A stretch of 64,000 nucleotides of DNA from Micromonospora sp. Llam0 (GTDB taxonomy: Bacteria; Actinomycetota; Actinomycetes; Mycobacteriales; Micromonosporaceae). Each line of letters begins with the position of its first letter. Positions within the stretch are counted from its first letter, which is position 1. The notes below the pieces were generated by a model, which did no database searches, was not told where the DNA came from, and was given only the letters and a program-made list of their open reading frames with translations. Made by a program: the position numbers and the translations under genes. The stretch spans positions 1,054,001 through 1,118,000 of the forward strand of contig NZ_RJJY01000002.1 of the NCBI RefSeq assembly GCF_003751085.1, written 5' to 3'. Below are positions 56,599 through 63,632 of this stretch, piece by piece.

Positions 56599-56739
56599 GG
56601 TCACAACCTTCGCGGTGGGATACGCCTTGCTGTGCGGCGGTGCGCGCTTGGGGCGCACACGCGACGACAACCCCCACGCCCGGTCCGGGCGGGGGTCAGG
56701 CCTACCAGCCTATCCGCCCGCAGATCCGCACTCACCCAC

Positions 56740-56745
56740 TAACCT
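56740..56745 (+). promoter_or_regulatory. -10 element (TAACCT) of a leaderless cyclase-family gene
   Basis: TAACCT ends eight bases before the ATG at 56754 and no Shine-Dalgarno is present in between. Confidence 0.4.
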
Positions 56746-56753
56746 CGCCGGAC

Positions 56754-57512
56754 ATGGGCACACCGACCGAGAAACGGTTCGTCGAACTCAGCCACGTCAT
56801 CCGGGACGGCATGGTCACCTATCCAGGACTGCCTGCCCCGGCGATCACCGAGTGGCTCAGCCGGGAGGCATCGGCCGAGCGGTACGCGGCCGGCACCACG
56901 TTCCGGATCAACCAGATCACGATGATCGGCAACACCGGCACCTACCTGGACGCCCCGTCGCACCGCTGGTCCGACGGGGCGGACCTGGCCGGGCTGCCGC
57001 TGGAGAAGTTGGCTGATCTGCCGGGCGTGGTGGTCCGGGTACCGCCCTCGACGCGGGCGGTGGACGCCGCGCTGCTGCGCCCGCACCTGGCCGGGGCTGC
57101 CGTCGTCGACGGCACGGCCGCCGGCGACGCAGCTACCGGCGGCGGCACGGCCGCCGGCGGGGCGGTGGCGGGGCGGGCGGTGTTGCTGGACACCGGCTGG
57201 TCGGCGCATTTCGGCACCGAGCGGTACGCCGCCCCGGACCACCCGTACCTGACGAAAGACGGTGCGGAACTGCTGGTCTCGGCAGGGGTCGCCCTGGTCG
57301 GCATCGACTCGATCAACATCGACGACACCGCGCCCGCGGCCAACGGTGCCCGGCCGGCGCACAGCGTCCTGCTGGCCGCCGGGATCCCGATCGTCGAGCA
57401 CCTGCGTGGGCTCGGCGAGCTACCGGTGTACGGGTTCCGGTTCAGCGCCGTACCGCCGATGTTCGCCGGGCTGGACACCGCGCCGGTCCGCGCGTACGCC
57501 ATCGTCGACTGA
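56754..57512 (+). CDS. Cyclase-family (kynurenine formamidase-like) protein with altered metal motif
   Basis: A 252-residue member of the cyclase/KynB family of metal hydrolases. The family metal motif HxGTHxDxxxH is replaced by GNTGTYLDAPSH, where Asn and Tyr occupy the two first His positions while Asp and the last His remain; ligands from a different part of the fold may substitute. The C-terminal HSVLLAAGIPIVEHLRGL is normal. An Ala/Gly insertion sits near residue 120. It is monocistronic, divergent from mfd. Confidence 0.75.
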   Translation: MGTPTEKRFVELSHVIRDGMVTYPGLPAPAITEWLSREASAERYAAGTTFRINQITMIGNTGTYLDAPSHRWSDGADLAGLPLEKLADLPGVVVRVPPSTRAVDAALLRPHLAGAAVVDGTAAGDAATGGGTAAGGAVAGRAVLLDTGWSAHFGTERYAAPDHPYLTKDGAELLVSAGVALVGIDSINIDDTAPAANGARPAHSVLLAAGIPIVEHLRGLGELPVYGFRFSAVPPMFAGLDTAPVRAYAIVD

Positions 57513-57578: not shown

Positions 57579-57953
57579 TCAGGCTGCGCGGCGGCGTCGG
57601 GGCGCGACGTCGTCGCGCAGCAGTCGCGGGATGAGCCAGGTCAGGGCGAGCGCCTGCGCGCCGGCGACCGGCCACTGGTCGACGTCGTCACCGAGTCGAA
57701 ATTCCAGCAGTACGCCGCCAGCCAGCACCGCCGCCGTACCGGTCATGCCGGTCGGCTGCATTCGGGCCGCCTGCGCTGGTTCGGCCGGATCGAGTTGCCA
57801 GCGGCCGACGGCGACGTCCACGTAGGGGTGCACGTCGGTCGCGGCAACTCGCAGCAGGCGAGAGGAGTGCCAGGCGGCGCTGTCGGGCGCGGTGGCGCAG
57901 TCGGCGCCGCGCAGACACCACGGCGGATGGGCACGCTTCGGTAGATTGCTCAT
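57579..57953 (-). CDS. Small Cys/Trp-bearing hypothetical protein
   Basis: A 124-residue protein whose N-terminus has HPPWCLRGADCATAPD (Cys-x5-Cys beside His and Trp) followed by VHPYVDVAVGRWQLDP. It resembles short actinobacterial DUF6907-type proteins often encoded beside GntR or HTH regulators, but I cannot confirm the family. A good sigma-A-like promoter is at 58059-58087 on the minus strand. It is divergent from the GntR gene. GC and codon use are normal. Confidence 0.55.
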   Translation of the reverse strand: MSNLPKRAHPPWCLRGADCATAPDSAAWHSSRLLRVAATDVHPYVDVAVGRWQLDPAEPAQAARMQPTGMTGTAAVLAGGVLLEFRLGDDVDQWPVAGAQALALTWLIPRLLRDDVAPRRRRAA

Positions 57954-58058
57954 GGGCCGGGGTCCTCTCCCGGTCAAGGCCCGGGATCATGGAGCGCCAA
58001 CTCCACCCGGGCCGCCTACAGATCTCATCGCTTCGACCTGCCACGGTCGACTAAGTCA

Positions 58059-58087
58059 ATCTAGGATTACTTGTCATGTCAGGTCAA
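58059..58087 (-). promoter_or_regulatory. Promoter of the small Cys/Trp protein gene, overlapping likely GntR operator half sites
   Basis: On the minus strand TTGACC (58082-58087) and CTAGAT (58059-58064) are 17 bp apart. The same stretch, with a plus-strand TTGACA at 58101-58106, holds several CTTG/CAAG half sites in inverted order (for example CTTG-N11-CAAG). These may be operators for the adjacent GntR protein. Confidence 0.5.
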
Positions 58088-58164
58088 GCCCTGTCGGTTC
58101 TTGACATTGACGCTCGGACGAGATCCGTGATCACATGGGCATACCTGCCACGGAAGTCATGCCC

Positions 58165-58392
58165 ATGCCTGCCTACACGAAGAAGCAACGCCTGATCGAC
58201 ACGCTGACCTCGCGAATCGAGTCAGGCGAGTACCCGCCCGGCGCGAAGCTGCCGTCCGGCACCGAACTGTGCGCTGAGTTCGACGTCTCCCGTCAAGTGG
58301 TCCGCGCCGCGATCGACTGGCTCAAGGCGCGTGGGCTCGTCGATGGCGCACCCGGCGCTGGCGTCTTCGTGCGGGAGCAGTCGGATCGGTGA
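58165..58392 (+). CDS. GntR-family regulator consisting only of the winged helix
   Basis: A 75-residue protein made of just the GntR-type winged helix-turn-helix: KQRLIDTLTSRIESGEYPPG, KLPSGTELCAEFDVSRQVVR, then WLKARGLVDGAPGAGVFV. No effector domain follows, unlike most GntR proteins. ATG 58165 has GGAAG eight bases upstream; an earlier in-frame ATG (58135 or 58159) is possible. The last 11 codons lie in a direct repeat (58360-58400), and a near-identical coding tail recurs at 62298-62338, beyond the NACHT gene. Confidence 0.8.
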   Translation: MPAYTKKQRLIDTLTSRIESGEYPPGAKLPSGTELCAEFDVSRQVVRAAIDWLKARGLVDGAPGAGVFVREQSDR

Positions 58393-58400
58393 CGCAACCG
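58360..58400 (+). repeat. Left 41-bp direct repeat flanking the NACHT gene (attachment-site-like)
   Basis: This 41-bp segment, identical to 62298-62338 at 38 of 41 positions (27 and 11 consecutive matches around a three-base difference), spans the last 11 codons (GVFVREQSDR and stop) of the GntR gene and eight bases beyond. A gene 3' end inside one repeat of a pair is the usual layout of a site-specific integration site. Confidence 0.8.
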
Positions 58401-58417
58401 ACATTCAGGCGCGACAG

Positions 58418-61400
58418 TTACCAACGGTCGTCGGGCAGGTCACGCTCGGACATCTGCCGCCAAAACCGGCTCAGCTCTCGTCGGGGGACAGCCTGCCACG
58501 GTGCCCGGTTGACGAACCGTGCCCACCAGATGTCCAGCCAGCGCGGAACGTCCTGCCAGTAGCCGCGCTTCCAGAACTCGGGGCTCGAGAAATCGCTCTG
58601 GATCGCGCCGACAAGATCCCCCTGGCGGGCGCAGAAGCTCTGGTCCATTTGGTAGGTCAGTCGTTCGCCTTGTGCCGGTAGCGGACAGAGCCGGAACGGA
58701 CAGCCGTCCAGGCAGGTCATACCCGGCTCGCCACGCTCCTTTGTCGTCAAATTGCGTTTGACCCGCAGTGCCCGGCGGTCGTCGGTGATACAGGGCGGCA
58801 GGTCTGATCGGTCAGACCGGGTCAGCCGTTCCTCGCGTCGGTCCGAGTCGTCACCCCGGTTGGCGAGGTTGTAGAGCAGCATGACGTCCGCCAGCAGACG
58901 CTGTGCTCGAGGCACCAGCAGACTCCAGCCCATCGAATCCGGAATCCAGGAGGTCTGGTGCCACCTGACCTCCTCCGACGGGCTGCACGCACCGACCCGG
59001 CTTGCCGTCTCACTCTCGTCGATCCAGATATAGCGTTCGGGGCGCAGGGTCAGCAGCGCGGATACGCAGAATCGACCGACCTCGACGACAAACGGATGGA
59101 CCATGCGACGCTCGCCTCCCGGCACGGCGCTGCCGGCCAGGCGGAGCCAGTACCGGACCTGTGCCCAGGGATTGACCACCCTCCCGCCCGGCGGGACAGC
59201 CGCATCCGGGTCGTCGGGAAGCGACAGCAGGGTGAGCGCCTGGATCAGGGCGATCTGGCTGTACCAATAACCCGAGTTGCGCAGCGCCAACTCGGCTCGC
59301 TCGACCATGAAGCTACGGTCCTGGACCCGGGTGCCCCGGGGCAGGCGGCGAAGGTTCGCGGCGAGCCGGAAGCCCTGGGCCAGCGCCAGCTCAGCCCGGA
59401 TCGGGAAGCGCACGTTGGGACGATTGGAGTCCCGTTGCGACAACGCATGTAGCCACCAGCCGAGTTGCTCGGTCACCTGCCGCGCAAGCTCTCCAGGCGT
59501 CCTGTCTCGGCCAGGAGCGATCGCACCAGCTCTACGGGACTGATGGTCGGGTTCCGATTCATCCTGTTTGTCCTGGCTTTCGAGGGACGCGGAGAGGTAG
59601 AGCAGCGGTAGCATCCAGCCGATGATCTGACAGCGGTCCTCGTCACGACCCTGCTGACCCTCAGCAGGCTGAGTCGGTCGGCTGGCCGTCCAGGACCCAG
59701 TCCGCGTCTCTTCGGTGCGGACAGACACACGCTCTTCGGCGACGACGGGCTCACGCCCCTTGACGGTCCACCGGCCCGGCCGCCACGGCAACCAGCGCAG
59801 CAGCGAGCCATGGCCTGCGGCCGGCGGGCGCGCCGGATCGGGCTGCTGGACGACAGCGGACCGTTGGACGACCTCCGAACGCCGGGTGACATCAAGCCGT
59901 CGAGAGCCATCAGCCCTCCGGGTGACATCCGCCAGGGGCGGCGGCGCCAGAACTTCAGGCTCCCGGCACAACTGCCTCGTCGCATCTAGACCACCGAGAC
60001 CGACTTCGCGGGCCGCTGCCAGCCGAACACGGTACGAATGCTCTTGGATCGCAATCTTGAACAGCTTCTCGTACTGCGGTGTCGCGTCGGAGTGGCCGCC
60101 AGCAGTGGTCCGAGCGCTGAGGAGCCGCGCGGCATCACCAGCCCGCCGGACGACGTGAAGCTTGGCCTCGTCCAACGGCCGGTCAGGCGCGGTCGGGTCC
60201 TCCAAAAATTCTTGCTTCCATCGCCGACACAATTCATCGACGATCCTTTCTTGCTGCGAGCGGTCACAGACGGCATCGACCTCCAGCGCAGCGGCGTACA
60301 TCTCCAGTCGCCAACAAGGATTGATTCCGCCGCTATCCTGAAATTTTGCCCGATCAAGGAGAAGACCCACCAGTTGATTCGGCGAATACTCATCCAACCT
60401 TCGTGCCACCGGCTTCTCTTCACCCGACCGCCGCCCTTGCCCCCACATTCGAGACATCAAAACCAGCGCACTCAACAGCTCCCGGCTCGGCTGATGGCCA
60501 CCAAGACAGGACTCCGCCCCCTTCCCGTAGCCGAAGCCAAAGCCAAATAATTCTTGAAGCAGTCCCGGACTCCTCGAATCGAACAGGAACTTGGCAGCCA
60601 GATAGGCTTGCAGATAGGCTTTCAGATCGCCGTACTGGAACCGCACACCATCGGCTTCCTCATCCACCAGACCCAACTCATCGCCACGCTGAGTAGCTAT
60701 AACAATATCATCTTTATTATTGATGTTGATCTTCTCAAGACCTTCTTTTTCCAACTGATCGCGGAGTAAATTTCTCACCTGACCAACGAATACGCTGCTA
60801 ATTTTGATGTTGCTTTCCCGCGGACAGTGGAACTCTTTGAAATCAACGCGCTGCGGCGATTCTTGACCGAGACCCAGGCAGGCGAATGCTTCGAGGACTC
60901 TCCCGGTGAGCTTGCGCTCATTTCGAGTATGGGCGTAATCCACCTGGAGATGCCCGTCAAGCAATGCCTCACACCATCTCTGCAGGAGCGCGAGCCGCAC
61001 TTGGACACGGTCCCGTGCCCTCAGAGAGTGTTTGGCGTCAGGCCCGACTTCAGTGCACAACTCACGGGGTAGCCGGTCTATCCGTTGCAAGTCCCGGATG
61101 ATACGTAGGAACATCGGCGACTCCGCGACGTCGGCCGCCTGCACGAGGATCGCGATGTCGGCGATGATCGCGATGTCGGCGATCGACTGATCCGCCAGCG
61201 ACCCAGAACCTTTTGCATAGTCAATGGCAGGGCCTTCGCCGAGCGGCTCCAGCGCGATGACGGCAGCCTTCATGGCACGCAGCGGATCGTAGGGTCGAGA
61301 TACTATCACCATAGGTAGGCCATCCTCGAAAGCCCGCCGAATAGCTTCTCGAATGGCACTGTCCCGAGCCGGCGCTCCCTGAATCGCCTCATCCAATCCG

Positions 61401-62209
61401 TCAGCGAGGACAGCCACCTCATTGGAGAGAAAGAGCTCCCGCCAGAGCCGTTCCTTATGGCCGTCACTAAAAATTTTCGAATCAACCGTCTCCAGAAACT
61501 TGTCCCTGGCCAGATCCTTGAAGTTCAATTTCGGGTGACCGACCGTGTCTCGCAGTCGGATCGGAATAGGCACAATTCCACGCGCGGCCAACCTGCGAGT
61601 CAACTCGACCAAAGTCGCGGTTTTACCTGCGCCAACTCCCCCGATAAGCACAATCGGAGATCGAGTAGCCGGATCCCGAATCCTGTCGATCAGCACCTCA
61701 CACAACTCGCGGCGACCAGCCACTTCATCGATAATTTTGGTTGCAGTCGCCACCAGCTCAGTCGGCGAATCACACGCCTTACTTAGATAGAAACGAACAA
61801 CCCTCCAATGCGCGACCAGGTAATAAGCAACAAAGGCGAGCGCGATACCGACGATCGGACCGACAACGGTCTTTATCTCACCCCACGCGGCGGCCGGACT
61901 CCATCGCAACCACGGAAACCACCACGACGGGATCAGCCAGTCCCAGTGCCGCCAATGCCAAAGAAGGTTGACAAGGGGAACCACCAGCTGAAACACGATG
62001 ACAGCTACGGCGGCCGTAGGCAGCACCCACTTGAACAGGGTGTACCACCCCGTCCGGCGCCACGGGCTGGCGTCCGACTGCCGCGGCTCGATGGTGCGCC
62101 GCAGGATTGGCCGCGACTGGTACTCCACCTCCATCTCGGTCTGGCGGACCAGTTGGGCCCACCAGACGCGGGGGGACAGGAGCCAGGATCTTCCGAGCCA
62201 GCCGCGCAT
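58418..62209 (-). CDS. Membrane-anchored NACHT (STAND) ATPase
   Basis: A 1263-residue protein (1269 from an in-frame GTG at 62227). Two membrane helices (about residues 61-90 and 118-140 in the longer numbering) are followed by a NACHT NTPase: Walker A GGVGAGKT (196-203), Walker B LADGLDE (274-280), an Arg in IVSRPYD, and the helical FQYGDLKAYLQAYLAAKF. The long C-terminal helical region probably senses a trigger; it ends with a Cys cluster (Cys1172, 1176, 1181, 1199). It has no recognised effector domain. Codon use is AT-richer around 60.7-60.9 kb, with TTA codons at 487 and 560. NACHT proteins often act in antiphage immunity or signalling; which applies here is unknown. The ATG at 62209 follows a G-run that may serve as a weak ribosome site. 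Confidence 0.9.
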   Translation of the reverse strand: MRGWLGRSWLLSPRVWWAQLVRQTEMEVEYQSRPILRRTIEPRQSDASPWRRTGWYTLFKWVLPTAAVAVIVFQLVVPLVNLLWHWRHWDWLIPSWWFPWLRWSPAAAWGEIKTVVGPIVGIALAFVAYYLVAHWRVVRFYLSKACDSPTELVATATKIIDEVAGRRELCEVLIDRIRDPATRSPIVLIGGVGAGKTATLVELTRRLAARGIVPIPIRLRDTVGHPKLNFKDLARDKFLETVDSKIFSDGHKERLWRELFLSNEVAVLADGLDEAIQGAPARDSAIREAIRRAFEDGLPMVIVSRPYDPLRAMKAAVIALEPLGEGPAIDYAKGSGSLADQSIADIAIIADIAILVQAADVAESPMFLRIIRDLQRIDRLPRELCTEVGPDAKHSLRARDRVQVRLALLQRWCEALLDGHLQVDYAHTRNERKLTGRVLEAFACLGLGQESPQRVDFKEFHCPRESNIKISSVFVGQVRNLLRDQLEKEGLEKININNKDDIVIATQRGDELGLVDEEADGVRFQYGDLKAYLQAYLAAKFLFDSRSPGLLQELFGFGFGYGKGAESCLGGHQPSRELLSALVLMSRMWGQGRRSGEEKPVARRLDEYSPNQLVGLLLDRAKFQDSGGINPCWRLEMYAAALEVDAVCDRSQQERIVDELCRRWKQEFLEDPTAPDRPLDEAKLHVVRRAGDAARLLSARTTAGGHSDATPQYEKLFKIAIQEHSYRVRLAAAREVGLGGLDATRQLCREPEVLAPPPLADVTRRADGSRRLDVTRRSEVVQRSAVVQQPDPARPPAAGHGSLLRWLPWRPGRWTVKGREPVVAEERVSVRTEETRTGSWTASRPTQPAEGQQGRDEDRCQIIGWMLPLLYLSASLESQDKQDESEPDHQSRRAGAIAPGRDRTPGELARQVTEQLGWWLHALSQRDSNRPNVRFPIRAELALAQGFRLAANLRRLPRGTRVQDRSFMVERAELALRNSGYWYSQIALIQALTLLSLPDDPDAAVPPGGRVVNPWAQVRYWLRLAGSAVPGGERRMVHPFVVEVGRFCVSALLTLRPERYIWIDESETASRVGACSPSEEVRWHQTSWIPDSMGWSLLVPRAQRLLADVMLLYNLANRGDDSDRREERLTRSDRSDLPPCITDDRRALRVKRNLTTKERGEPGMTCLDGCPFRLCPLPAQGERLTYQMDQSFCARQGDLVGAIQSDFSSPEFWKRGYWQDVPRWLDIWWARFVNRAPWQAVPRRELSRFWRQMSERDLPDDRW

Positions 62210-62297
62210 CACCGTACCCCCGTCCACGGTGCGTCCAGCTGGGGCGAGGTGCCCCCTGCCATCGCGGTCAACGTAGCCCGGTCACTCGTGGTACGAA

Positions 62298-62338
62298 GGC
62301 GTCTTCGTAAAGGAGCAGTCGGATCGGTGACGCAACCG
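62298..62338 (+). repeat. Right 41-bp direct repeat flanking the NACHT gene (attachment-site-like)
   Basis: This copy reads GVFVKEQSDR and stop in the same frame as the GntR tail; the three changed bases turn GTG-CGG (Val-Arg) into GTA-AAG (Val-Lys). Frame upstream of it stays open only to a TAG near 62273, so it is a detached 3' end, not a gene. Together with 58360-58400 it delimits about 3.94 kb containing only the NACHT gene. Confidence 0.8.
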
Positions 62339-62384
62339 GCCACCGGGACAGCGGTCAGTGAAGCCTGTCGGGCAGGCTCTGCCG

Positions 62385-63353
62385 ATGCCTGTCGCCGCCA
62401 GAGTCCCTCGCGAGTTGAGGCTCGCCCCGTTCTCCGGTAGCCGCGCGGTGGCCGCCGGCCTGGCCACCTGGCAGATGCTCCGTGGCCCCGCCTGGCAACG
62501 GCTGCTTCCCGACGTCTACGTGGAGGCGGCGGCGTTCGACCCCGACGACCACCGGATGTGGTGCGAGGCGGTAGCGGTGAAGCTGCCCGTCGGCGGGGCG
62601 ATCAGCGGACTGAGCGCCGCGTACCTGTGGGGTGTCGACCTGCTCCCCCGCAGGAGCCCGGTGCACGTCACCCTGCCTCGCTCGGCCAGATTCGGCGCAC
62701 ACCCCCGGCTGGCCGTCTCCCGTCGCTCGCTCGACCCGACCGACATCACCGTTTCGTTCGGCGGTATCGCGTTGACCACCGAGGTATGCACCGCGTTCGA
62801 CCTGGGCCGTCTGCTGCCCCGGGCCGACGCGCTCGCCGCACTCGACGCGATGTTGCACCGCCGGCTGCTGTCCGCTGAAGCCCTCACCGGCTATCTCGAC
62901 ACCAACGCTGGCGGACGTGGCATCGCCCAACTGCGTGAGCTCGTCACGCTCGTCGAACCGTTGGCCGAGTCGCCGATGGAGTCGCGGCTCCGGCTCTTGC
63001 TGCACGACGCGGGCCTGCCTCGCCCGACAGTGCAGTACGAAGTACGCCGGCCGGCGCAGCAGGCGATGTCGCAGCAGGCGATGTCGCGACGACAGGCACA
63101 GGCAGCGGATGGTGCCGGCCAGGGTCGCTTCATTGCTCGGGTCGATCTTGCCTACCCGCAGTGGCGGATCGCCATCGAGTACGAGGGTGACCACCATCGG
63201 GAGCGCACGACGTTCCGCCGCGACGTGGGCCGTTACAACGCGCTACGGGCCGCCGGCTGGCTCGTTCTGCGCTTCACGGCGGACGACGTCCTCCGACAAA
63301 GCGGACAACTCACCCGGATGGTCCGGCAGGCCATCGCCGAACAACGCCGGTGA
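62385..63353 (+). CDS. DUF559 nuclease-fold protein with AbiEi-like N-terminus
   Basis: A 322-residue protein (331 from ATG 62358). The N-terminal half has the AbiEi-type antitoxin/winged-helix features (LPDVYVEAAAF, SGLSAAYLWGVDLLP), and the C-terminal part is a DUF559 Vsr-like PD-(D/E)xK domain: FIARVDLAYPQWRIAIEYEG (Asp and Glu in place) followed by HHRERTTFRRDVGRYNAL and LVLRFTADDV. Proteins of this type are common singletons in actinobacteria; activity is unproven. A direct repeat duplicates QQAMS (63057-63086). It lies immediately outside the right repeat. Confidence 0.82.
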   Translation: MPVAARVPRELRLAPFSGSRAVAAGLATWQMLRGPAWQRLLPDVYVEAAAFDPDDHRMWCEAVAVKLPVGGAISGLSAAYLWGVDLLPRRSPVHVTLPRSARFGAHPRLAVSRRSLDPTDITVSFGGIALTTEVCTAFDLGRLLPRADALAALDAMLHRRLLSAEALTGYLDTNAGGRGIAQLRELVTLVEPLAESPMESRLRLLLHDAGLPRPTVQYEVRRPAQQAMSQQAMSRRQAQAADGAGQGRFIARVDLAYPQWRIAIEYEGDHHRERTTFRRDVGRYNALRAAGWLVLRFTADDVLRQSGQLTRMVRQAIAEQRR

Positions 63354-63360
63354 TCGGATC

Positions 63361-63415
63361 GAGGGAACCTACATTGTTGTCATCCGGCGGGTTTGACGAC
63401 AATACAGGTTCCCTC
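63361..63415 (+). terminator. Long hairpin after the DUF559 gene
   Basis: Two 21-base arms (63361-63381 and 63395-63415) pair through GAGGGAACCT/AGGTTCCCTC, a two-base internal loop and ATTGTTGTC/GACGACAAT (one G-U) around a 13-base loop. It starts eight bases after the DUF559 stop. It lacks a long T-run. A terminator function is likely but a palindromic element cannot be excluded. The rest of the 280-bp gap to ppc shows no gene. Confidence 0.65.
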
Positions 63416-63632
63416 GCTGAGCAGGTGGGGGTGACCGGCTTCCCTCGCTGCGTGGGCGCCGCCCCAGAAGGGGGCATCGCCGGGTCGGCAGGTCGGACCA
63501 AAAGGAACATTTCGGGACGGTACGCCGAACGTTGAGACAAGACTCACCAGTTTCCCCGTGGCCGGGGGGATCGCCGATAACATCCAAGTTGTCGGACAGC
63601 GCCGTCCTTCGTACTCGCGTGAGGAGCGCCTA

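Follow-up and report, generated by a model that had tools for sequence, protein, structure and literature searches.

The only credible gene between a pair of 41-bp direct repeats in the 64,000-nucleotide stretch of DNA analyzed here (the window) encodes a STAND/NACHT-like protein of 1,269 residues. The history of this single-gene locus was probably one insertion, followed by reshuffling through homologous recombination. The genus sample consists of seven genomes, the window source (G000; 8.9 Mb in two contigs) and six congeners (G001 to G006), all related marine actinomycetes taken to belong to Solwaraspora, which is Micromonospora_E in GTDB (PMC12299039). The features of the locus are as follows.

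57579..57977, minus strand: 132-aa protein beside GntR, with no match in Pfam, PADLOC, or NCBIfam
58005..58060, no strand: left recombination edge, where G000-G001 identity collapses 5' of GntR (150-bp profile and 30-bp windows)
58135..58392, plus strand: small GntR-type DNA-binding protein, 85 aa, allele A (Pfam GntR, 63.6 bits)
58360..58400, plus strand: left 41-bp copy, true GntR 3' end (GVFVREQSDR-stop) with the AGTCGGATCGGTGAC element
58418..62227, minus strand: STAND/NACHT-like protein, 1,269 aa (ORF, Pfam, alignment of relatives, and homolog model)
62110..62169, no strand: right recombination edge, inside the NACHT 5' codons, where flank-level identity gives way to diverged sequence (30-bp windows and 150-bp profile)
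62298..62338, plus strand: right 41-bp copy, detached GntR-like tail (GVFVKEQSDR-stop) with the DUF559 5' element
62317..62331, plus strand: conserved element AGTCGGATCNGYGAC, 41 bp 5' of position 62358
62358..63353, plus strand: DUF559 protein, start at 62358 or 62386 (Pfam DUF559, 30.8 bits; cutoff, 20.6)

Composite repeats at the GntR-DUF559 junction

The two copies are identical at 38 of 41 bases, start 3,938 bp apart, and both translate to GVFV(R/K)EQSDR-stop, in full agreement with the first-pass annotation. The best ungapped score between the flanks is 32, compared with a maximum of 17 and a mean of 11.2 in 500 first-order resamplings of both 1-kb flanks. The left copy is indeed the real 3' end of the GntR gene and the right copy a detached tail. 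However, the repeat is not GntR tail throughout, as had been supposed: only its 5' half is, and its 3' half is an element that precedes DUF559 genes.

In many DUF559 paralogs, DNA similarity to the window begins abruptly inside the right copy, and the aligned 5' regions share the block AGTCGGATCNGYGAC directly before the gene, with unrelated DNA ahead of it. This block is found within two mismatches in 18 of 21 paralog loci, always 40 to 42 bp before the residue equivalent to position 62358; it has three mismatches in L188 and is absent from L132 and L194. Twenty of the loci come from a similarity search that scored only four candidates per genome and one from a separate search. Two further hits were set aside, one in G003 that spans 38 bp and a weak one in G000 with 32% identity. 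An initial subset of 14 loci, 11 of which were picked for a match starting near the element, contains it within two mismatches in 13 cases under a slightly looser pattern. The exact pattern occurs at 15 sites in the seven genomes and its reversed control at none. Thirteen of these sites lie 5' of a DUF559 gene (5 sites that lack the insert, 2 right copies, and 6 paralogs); the other two are the left copy in G000 and a site in seemingly unrelated DNA (G002:C1:3654100).

Judged from these alignments, the 41-bp repeat is a composite of a GntR tail in the 5' half and a DUF559 5' element in the 3' half, and its duplication therefore preserves both neighbors, the GntR 3' end as well as the DUF559 5' element. 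At empty sites, this element, which might be regulatory, overlaps the stop codon of GntR.

The idea that DUF559 is a cassette in its own right, bounded by another core downstream, was tried and rejected. Within 600 bp downstream, only one of the 21 loci (L123) has a match on the same strand with two mismatches, the next best having four, and the opposite-strand matches at L125, L134, and L135 do not fit such an arrangement. Import of DUF559 along with the NACHT gene was dropped as an explanation because of its high dS across the whole genus (up to 0.65 among all pairs of the seven genomes, compared with 0.25 for mfd). Inspection by eye shows hairpins whose stems read GTGAGGCT...AGCCTCAC ahead of the DUF559 5' element at L127, L129, L130, L134, and L135, that is, in several places and genomes; these are possibly terminators or members of a small repeat family. 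Downstream of DUF559 in the window, positions 63360 to 63416 contain 23-nt arms that are 87% complementary and 11 nt apart. DUF559 may be linked to AbiEi, a connection that is not claimed here; no paper covering both was found in the open-licence literature.

Domain architecture of the NACHT-like protein

As the first-pass annotation stated, the gene on the minus strand at 58418 to 62227 stands alone between the repeats, and its codons are AT richer than those around it (GC3 of 0.70, versus 0.80 to 0.94 in five neighboring genes). The 16 other ORFs of at least 80 aa in the interval all overlap this gene or a repeat, and none has a Pfam match at an E value of ≤0.01. No recombinase was thus found between the repeats, which bears out the earlier remark that an integrase is absent there.

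The protein contains two N-terminal hydrophobic segments (residues ~64 to 91 and ~120 to 139), followed by a NACHT-like NTPase, an arm region, a linker, and a C-terminal domain with six conserved cysteines. These cysteines, located within residues 1054 to 1199 of the window protein, are kept in all 16 aligned proteins. The motifs GGVGAGKT and LADGLDEA are both present, and we take them to be Walker A and the acidic Walker B, respectively. In Pfam, the window protein itself matches AAA_16 alone, with 22.4 bits and below the cutoff of 32.6. The NACHT label of the first-pass annotation finds its footing in the relatives: at an E value of ≤0.01, 15 of the 16 aligned proteins match AAA_16 and 11 match the Pfam NACHT domain (best E value, 4.1e-06), and the predicted model of a 60%-identical homolog resembles NLRC4, NLRP3, and NOD2 over model residues ~100 to 690. 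The predicted NACHT-type NTPase, with Walker A and acidic Walker B motifs, would place the window protein among the STAND/NACHT NTPases.

PADLOC gave no match for this protein, and sequence searches against solved structures gave none for the protein (E value of ≤0.1) or for the profile (E value of ≤0.01). The C-terminal domain modeled alone yields a poor model, with a mean pLDDT of 54. The protein probably has an anti-phage or other conflict role. In G001, the gene is broken into two frames of 846 and 419 codons near the linker, which makes its present function doubtful.

Occupied and empty sites

The first-pass annotation called for a search of related strains for a single repeat copy without the gene, and such sites are found in five of the six congeners. 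In G002 to G006, one 41-bp copy joins the GntR end straight to the DUF559 5' flank, and six-frame searches of these whole genomes detected no NACHT relative at an E value of ≤0.001. G001 carries the gene with both copies, so that two of the seven genomes are occupied. This pattern points to an insertion polymorphism and not to an old genus-wide duplication. G000 and G001 are also the nearest pair by mfd (dS of 0.11, versus 0.17 to 0.22 to the other five), and a single insertion on the G000/G001 branch is the simplest history.

All four occupied copies include GGAGCAG, whereas all five empty sites have GGAACAG; the empty sites therefore probably did not arise by excision from a locus arranged like the present occupied one. 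The right copies of G000 and G001 have 40 of 41 bases in common. The left copy of G000 is nearer to the right copy of G001 (39/41) than to its left copy (35/41), suggesting that conversion between the copies may have taken place and obscured their history.

Exchange of GntR and NACHT alleles

The GntR protein exists in two forms, one in G000 and G003 (98.8% amino acid identity) and the other in G001, G002, G004, G005, and G006 (45 to 47% identity to G000; 45.5% for G001). This distribution across the seven genomes shows that the forms do not follow the insert. In 150-bp windows, G000-G001 identity is 0.85 to 0.98 in the flanks, 0.39 to 0.50 in the GntR region from ~58020, and 0.47 to 0.86 in most of the NACHT gene. 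Just inside the right copy, at 62170 to 62289, which includes the NACHT 5' codons, the two genomes match at 117 of 120 positions.

Between G000 and G001, the dS values are 0.111 for mfd, 0.132 for the cyclase gene, 0.105 for the gene of the 132-aa protein, and 0.115 for DUF559, compared with 0.976 for GntR, 1.64 for NACHT residues 61 to 780, and 0.75 for residues 861 to 1269, as calculated by Nei-Gojobori, a simple method at high GC, with the high values near saturation. Simple vertical inheritance after the two species separated does not account for this contrast. The sequence comparisons indicate that the occupied locus is one altered by allelic recombination since G000 and G001 diverged.

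The protein of Solwaraspora WMMB762 (P0001), which is encoded in one frame, unlike the split G001 gene, has a mosaic relationship to the G001 protein. The two are identical at 300 of 300 residues in positions 1 to 300, at 311 of 485 aligned residues in positions 301 to 800, and at 276 of 282 residues in positions 901 to 1182. Residues 1 to 300 are not invariant in general, as G001 and G000 share only 218 of 300. Segments of different history would be the natural explanation for this pattern. WMMB762 enters this comparison through the protein P0001, and the locus DNA comes from the seven genomes alone.

Gene content of the mfd-ppc interval

The mfd-ppc interval has seen several single-gene gains or losses. 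The gene at the end of the window encodes PEP carboxylase, as the first-pass annotation had noted for ppc. The cyclase gene (56640 to 57512) is full length or nearly so only in G000, G001, and G005, with short partial matches in G002, G003, G004, and G006. It was considered as a second bracketed insertion, a reading that was dropped because G003 keeps the first cyclase codons, which makes a deletion as likely. The gap between DUF559 and ppc contains an LD-carboxypeptidase (Peptidase_S66) gene in G004 and G006 (L037:7762-9021 and L039:6709-7923) and shorter, similar-looking ORFs in G003 and G002, and is too short for such a gene in G000, G001, and G005.

NACHT relatives in other genera

Some match to the NACHT protein at an E value of ≤0.001 is found in 20 of 201 genomes. 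Besides G000 and G001, strong relatives are present in G050, G085, G107, G114, G120, and G172; the gene is broken in G116, and the other 11 matches are weak. In two Micromonospora genomes, G085 and G050, the NACHT gene is located between a HATPase_c_2 gene and an HD gene (Pfam was run on G085). Among 30 such loci read out of 41 genomes, the NACHT gene separates HATPase from HD in 2, the two genes adjoin in 15 (one of these, L171, with a 34-residue NACHT-like match), and neither was detected in 13. At seven loci of NACHT relatives in other genera, the best scores for flanking repeats are 11 to 15, versus 32 here, so there is no general repeat rule for the family. The NACHT family is thus gained and lost as a lone gene at more than one location, and the loci examined lack repeats of this sort. 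A Micromonospora locus (L142, in G116) has a NACHT relative with three in-frame stops that is apparently decaying. Protein-guided and pattern scans of contigs from named genomes gave no match, in a set from which near relatives were perhaps left out.

Proposed history of the locus and alternatives

The following scenario appears the best explanation. A NACHT/STAND-like gene would have entered a single time, in the part of Solwaraspora that includes G000 and G001, at the place where the GntR stop overlaps the DUF559 5' element. As the anatomy and the empty sites show, the insertion left the 41-bp duplication, with which GntR keeps its 3' end and DUF559 its 5' element, and selection may have favored keeping both neighbors whole. 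The duplication most likely arose via short-homology integration or repair-linked target copying rather than through a dedicated recombinase. Later, diverged GntR and NACHT alleles were exchanged by homologous recombination through the shared flanks, and NACHT segments, most notably the arm that follows the NTPase, differ in history between strains, as the dS values, the identity breaks, and the protein mosaicism show. Transduction or conjugation could have carried the alleles. As for putative action, the variable arm or C-terminal region might sense a trigger, upon which NACHT would oligomerize and the protein would act on the cell through its membrane segments or its C-terminal domain.

The length of the duplication counts against this explanation: 41 bp is a common length for att sites and long for repair slippage. 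As in a site-specific integrative element, att-like direct repeats are found at both ends and one copy in the empty site; the recombinase that such an element encodes is not found within the repeat-bounded interval. The first-pass annotation accordingly proposed either a mobile cassette served in trans or a product of local recombination. This proposal is partly supported: the site shows an insertion polymorphism, and the occupied locus has undergone allelic recombination since. It is unlikely that the repeats are attL and attR of a circular one-gene element that entered attB at the GntR 3' end with the help of a recombinase encoded elsewhere. Such a cassette would account for direct repeats at the 3' end of a gene that is kept whole, for clean single-copy empty sites, and for diverged alleles in the same place. 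Yet the seven genomes show no second pair of cores and none of the alternative cargo that had been anticipated, the seven loci in other genera lack such repeats, both copies in both occupied genomes carry GGAGCAG, and the 3' half of the repeat is already accounted for by the DUF559 element.

The divergence of the NACHT genes (dS of 0.75 to 1.64, versus 0.11 in the flanks), together with the different GntR alleles, could instead mean that related NACHT genes entered this position twice, once in G000 and independently in G001. We regard this as rather improbable: the near identity just inside the right copy and the agreement of the right copies argue for one right junction and later exchange, even though two cassettes with a conserved end could mimic this. 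Ancestral presence followed by precise loss in the other congeners, with the two 41-bp repeats recombining, would likewise result in a single-copy site but is very improbable, given the GGAACAG of the empty sites against the GGAGCAG of the occupied copies and the need for losses in several lineages.

The preferred reading of one insertion followed by allelic recombination can be extended, tentatively. The overlap of the GntR stop and the DUF559 element might have served as a harmless landing site for a recombinase-free NACHT gene and then as an allele bank in which the NTPase and C-terminal domain are common and the arm is swapped between strains, a possible parallel in bacteria to the diversification of NLRs, achieved through simple recombination. 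If the proposed history is right, the locus shows a way for a large immune-like receptor encoded by one gene to take up a fixed place in the chromosome and alter its variable region while bringing no mobility gene along. With its occupied, empty, and mosaic alleles, this one genus offers a compact natural setting in which to ask what part of a bacterial NACHT-like protein determines recognition.

Comparison with known systems

No description of a comparable locus turned up in the open-licence literature. PAISt is said to be an integrative element at the 3' end of the bacA gene in Streptomyces. The locus described here shares with it entry at a gene 3' end; unlike PAISt-type elements, it consists of one gene, with no integrase found between the repeats, and half of its 41-bp repeat serves the downstream gene.

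Kibby 2023 is reportedly the reference for the bacterial NLR-related (bNACHT) anti-phage proteins. These proteins act against phages (PMC12169576). The window protein resembles them in being a large single-gene product with a NACHT/STAND-like NTPase and in the likeness of its homolog model to NLRC4, NLRP3, and NOD2. It differs in that PADLOC gives no match, in its two hydrophobic segments near the N terminus, and in a C-terminal domain that contains cysteines, and is known here from its sequence and the model of a homolog.

Lateral transduction of defense genes has been reported (PMC12829572), and here, too, a chromosomal defense-like gene is gained and lost without an integrase of its own. 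In the conflict systems of multicellular bacteria, recombination in chromosome arms has been posited to vary the VMAP ternary systems of actinobacteria (PMC7159879). Common features are an actinobacterial NTPase gene of the conflict type, variable parts, and recombination as their proposed source, whereas the window locus encodes a single NACHT-like protein, with segment exchange at one locus and locatable edges. Finally, STAND/NACHT sensors diversified by DGRs (PMC10907252) are NACHT-linked proteins with a diversified part, as is the window protein; in contrast to them, its variation looks like the replacement of whole segments.
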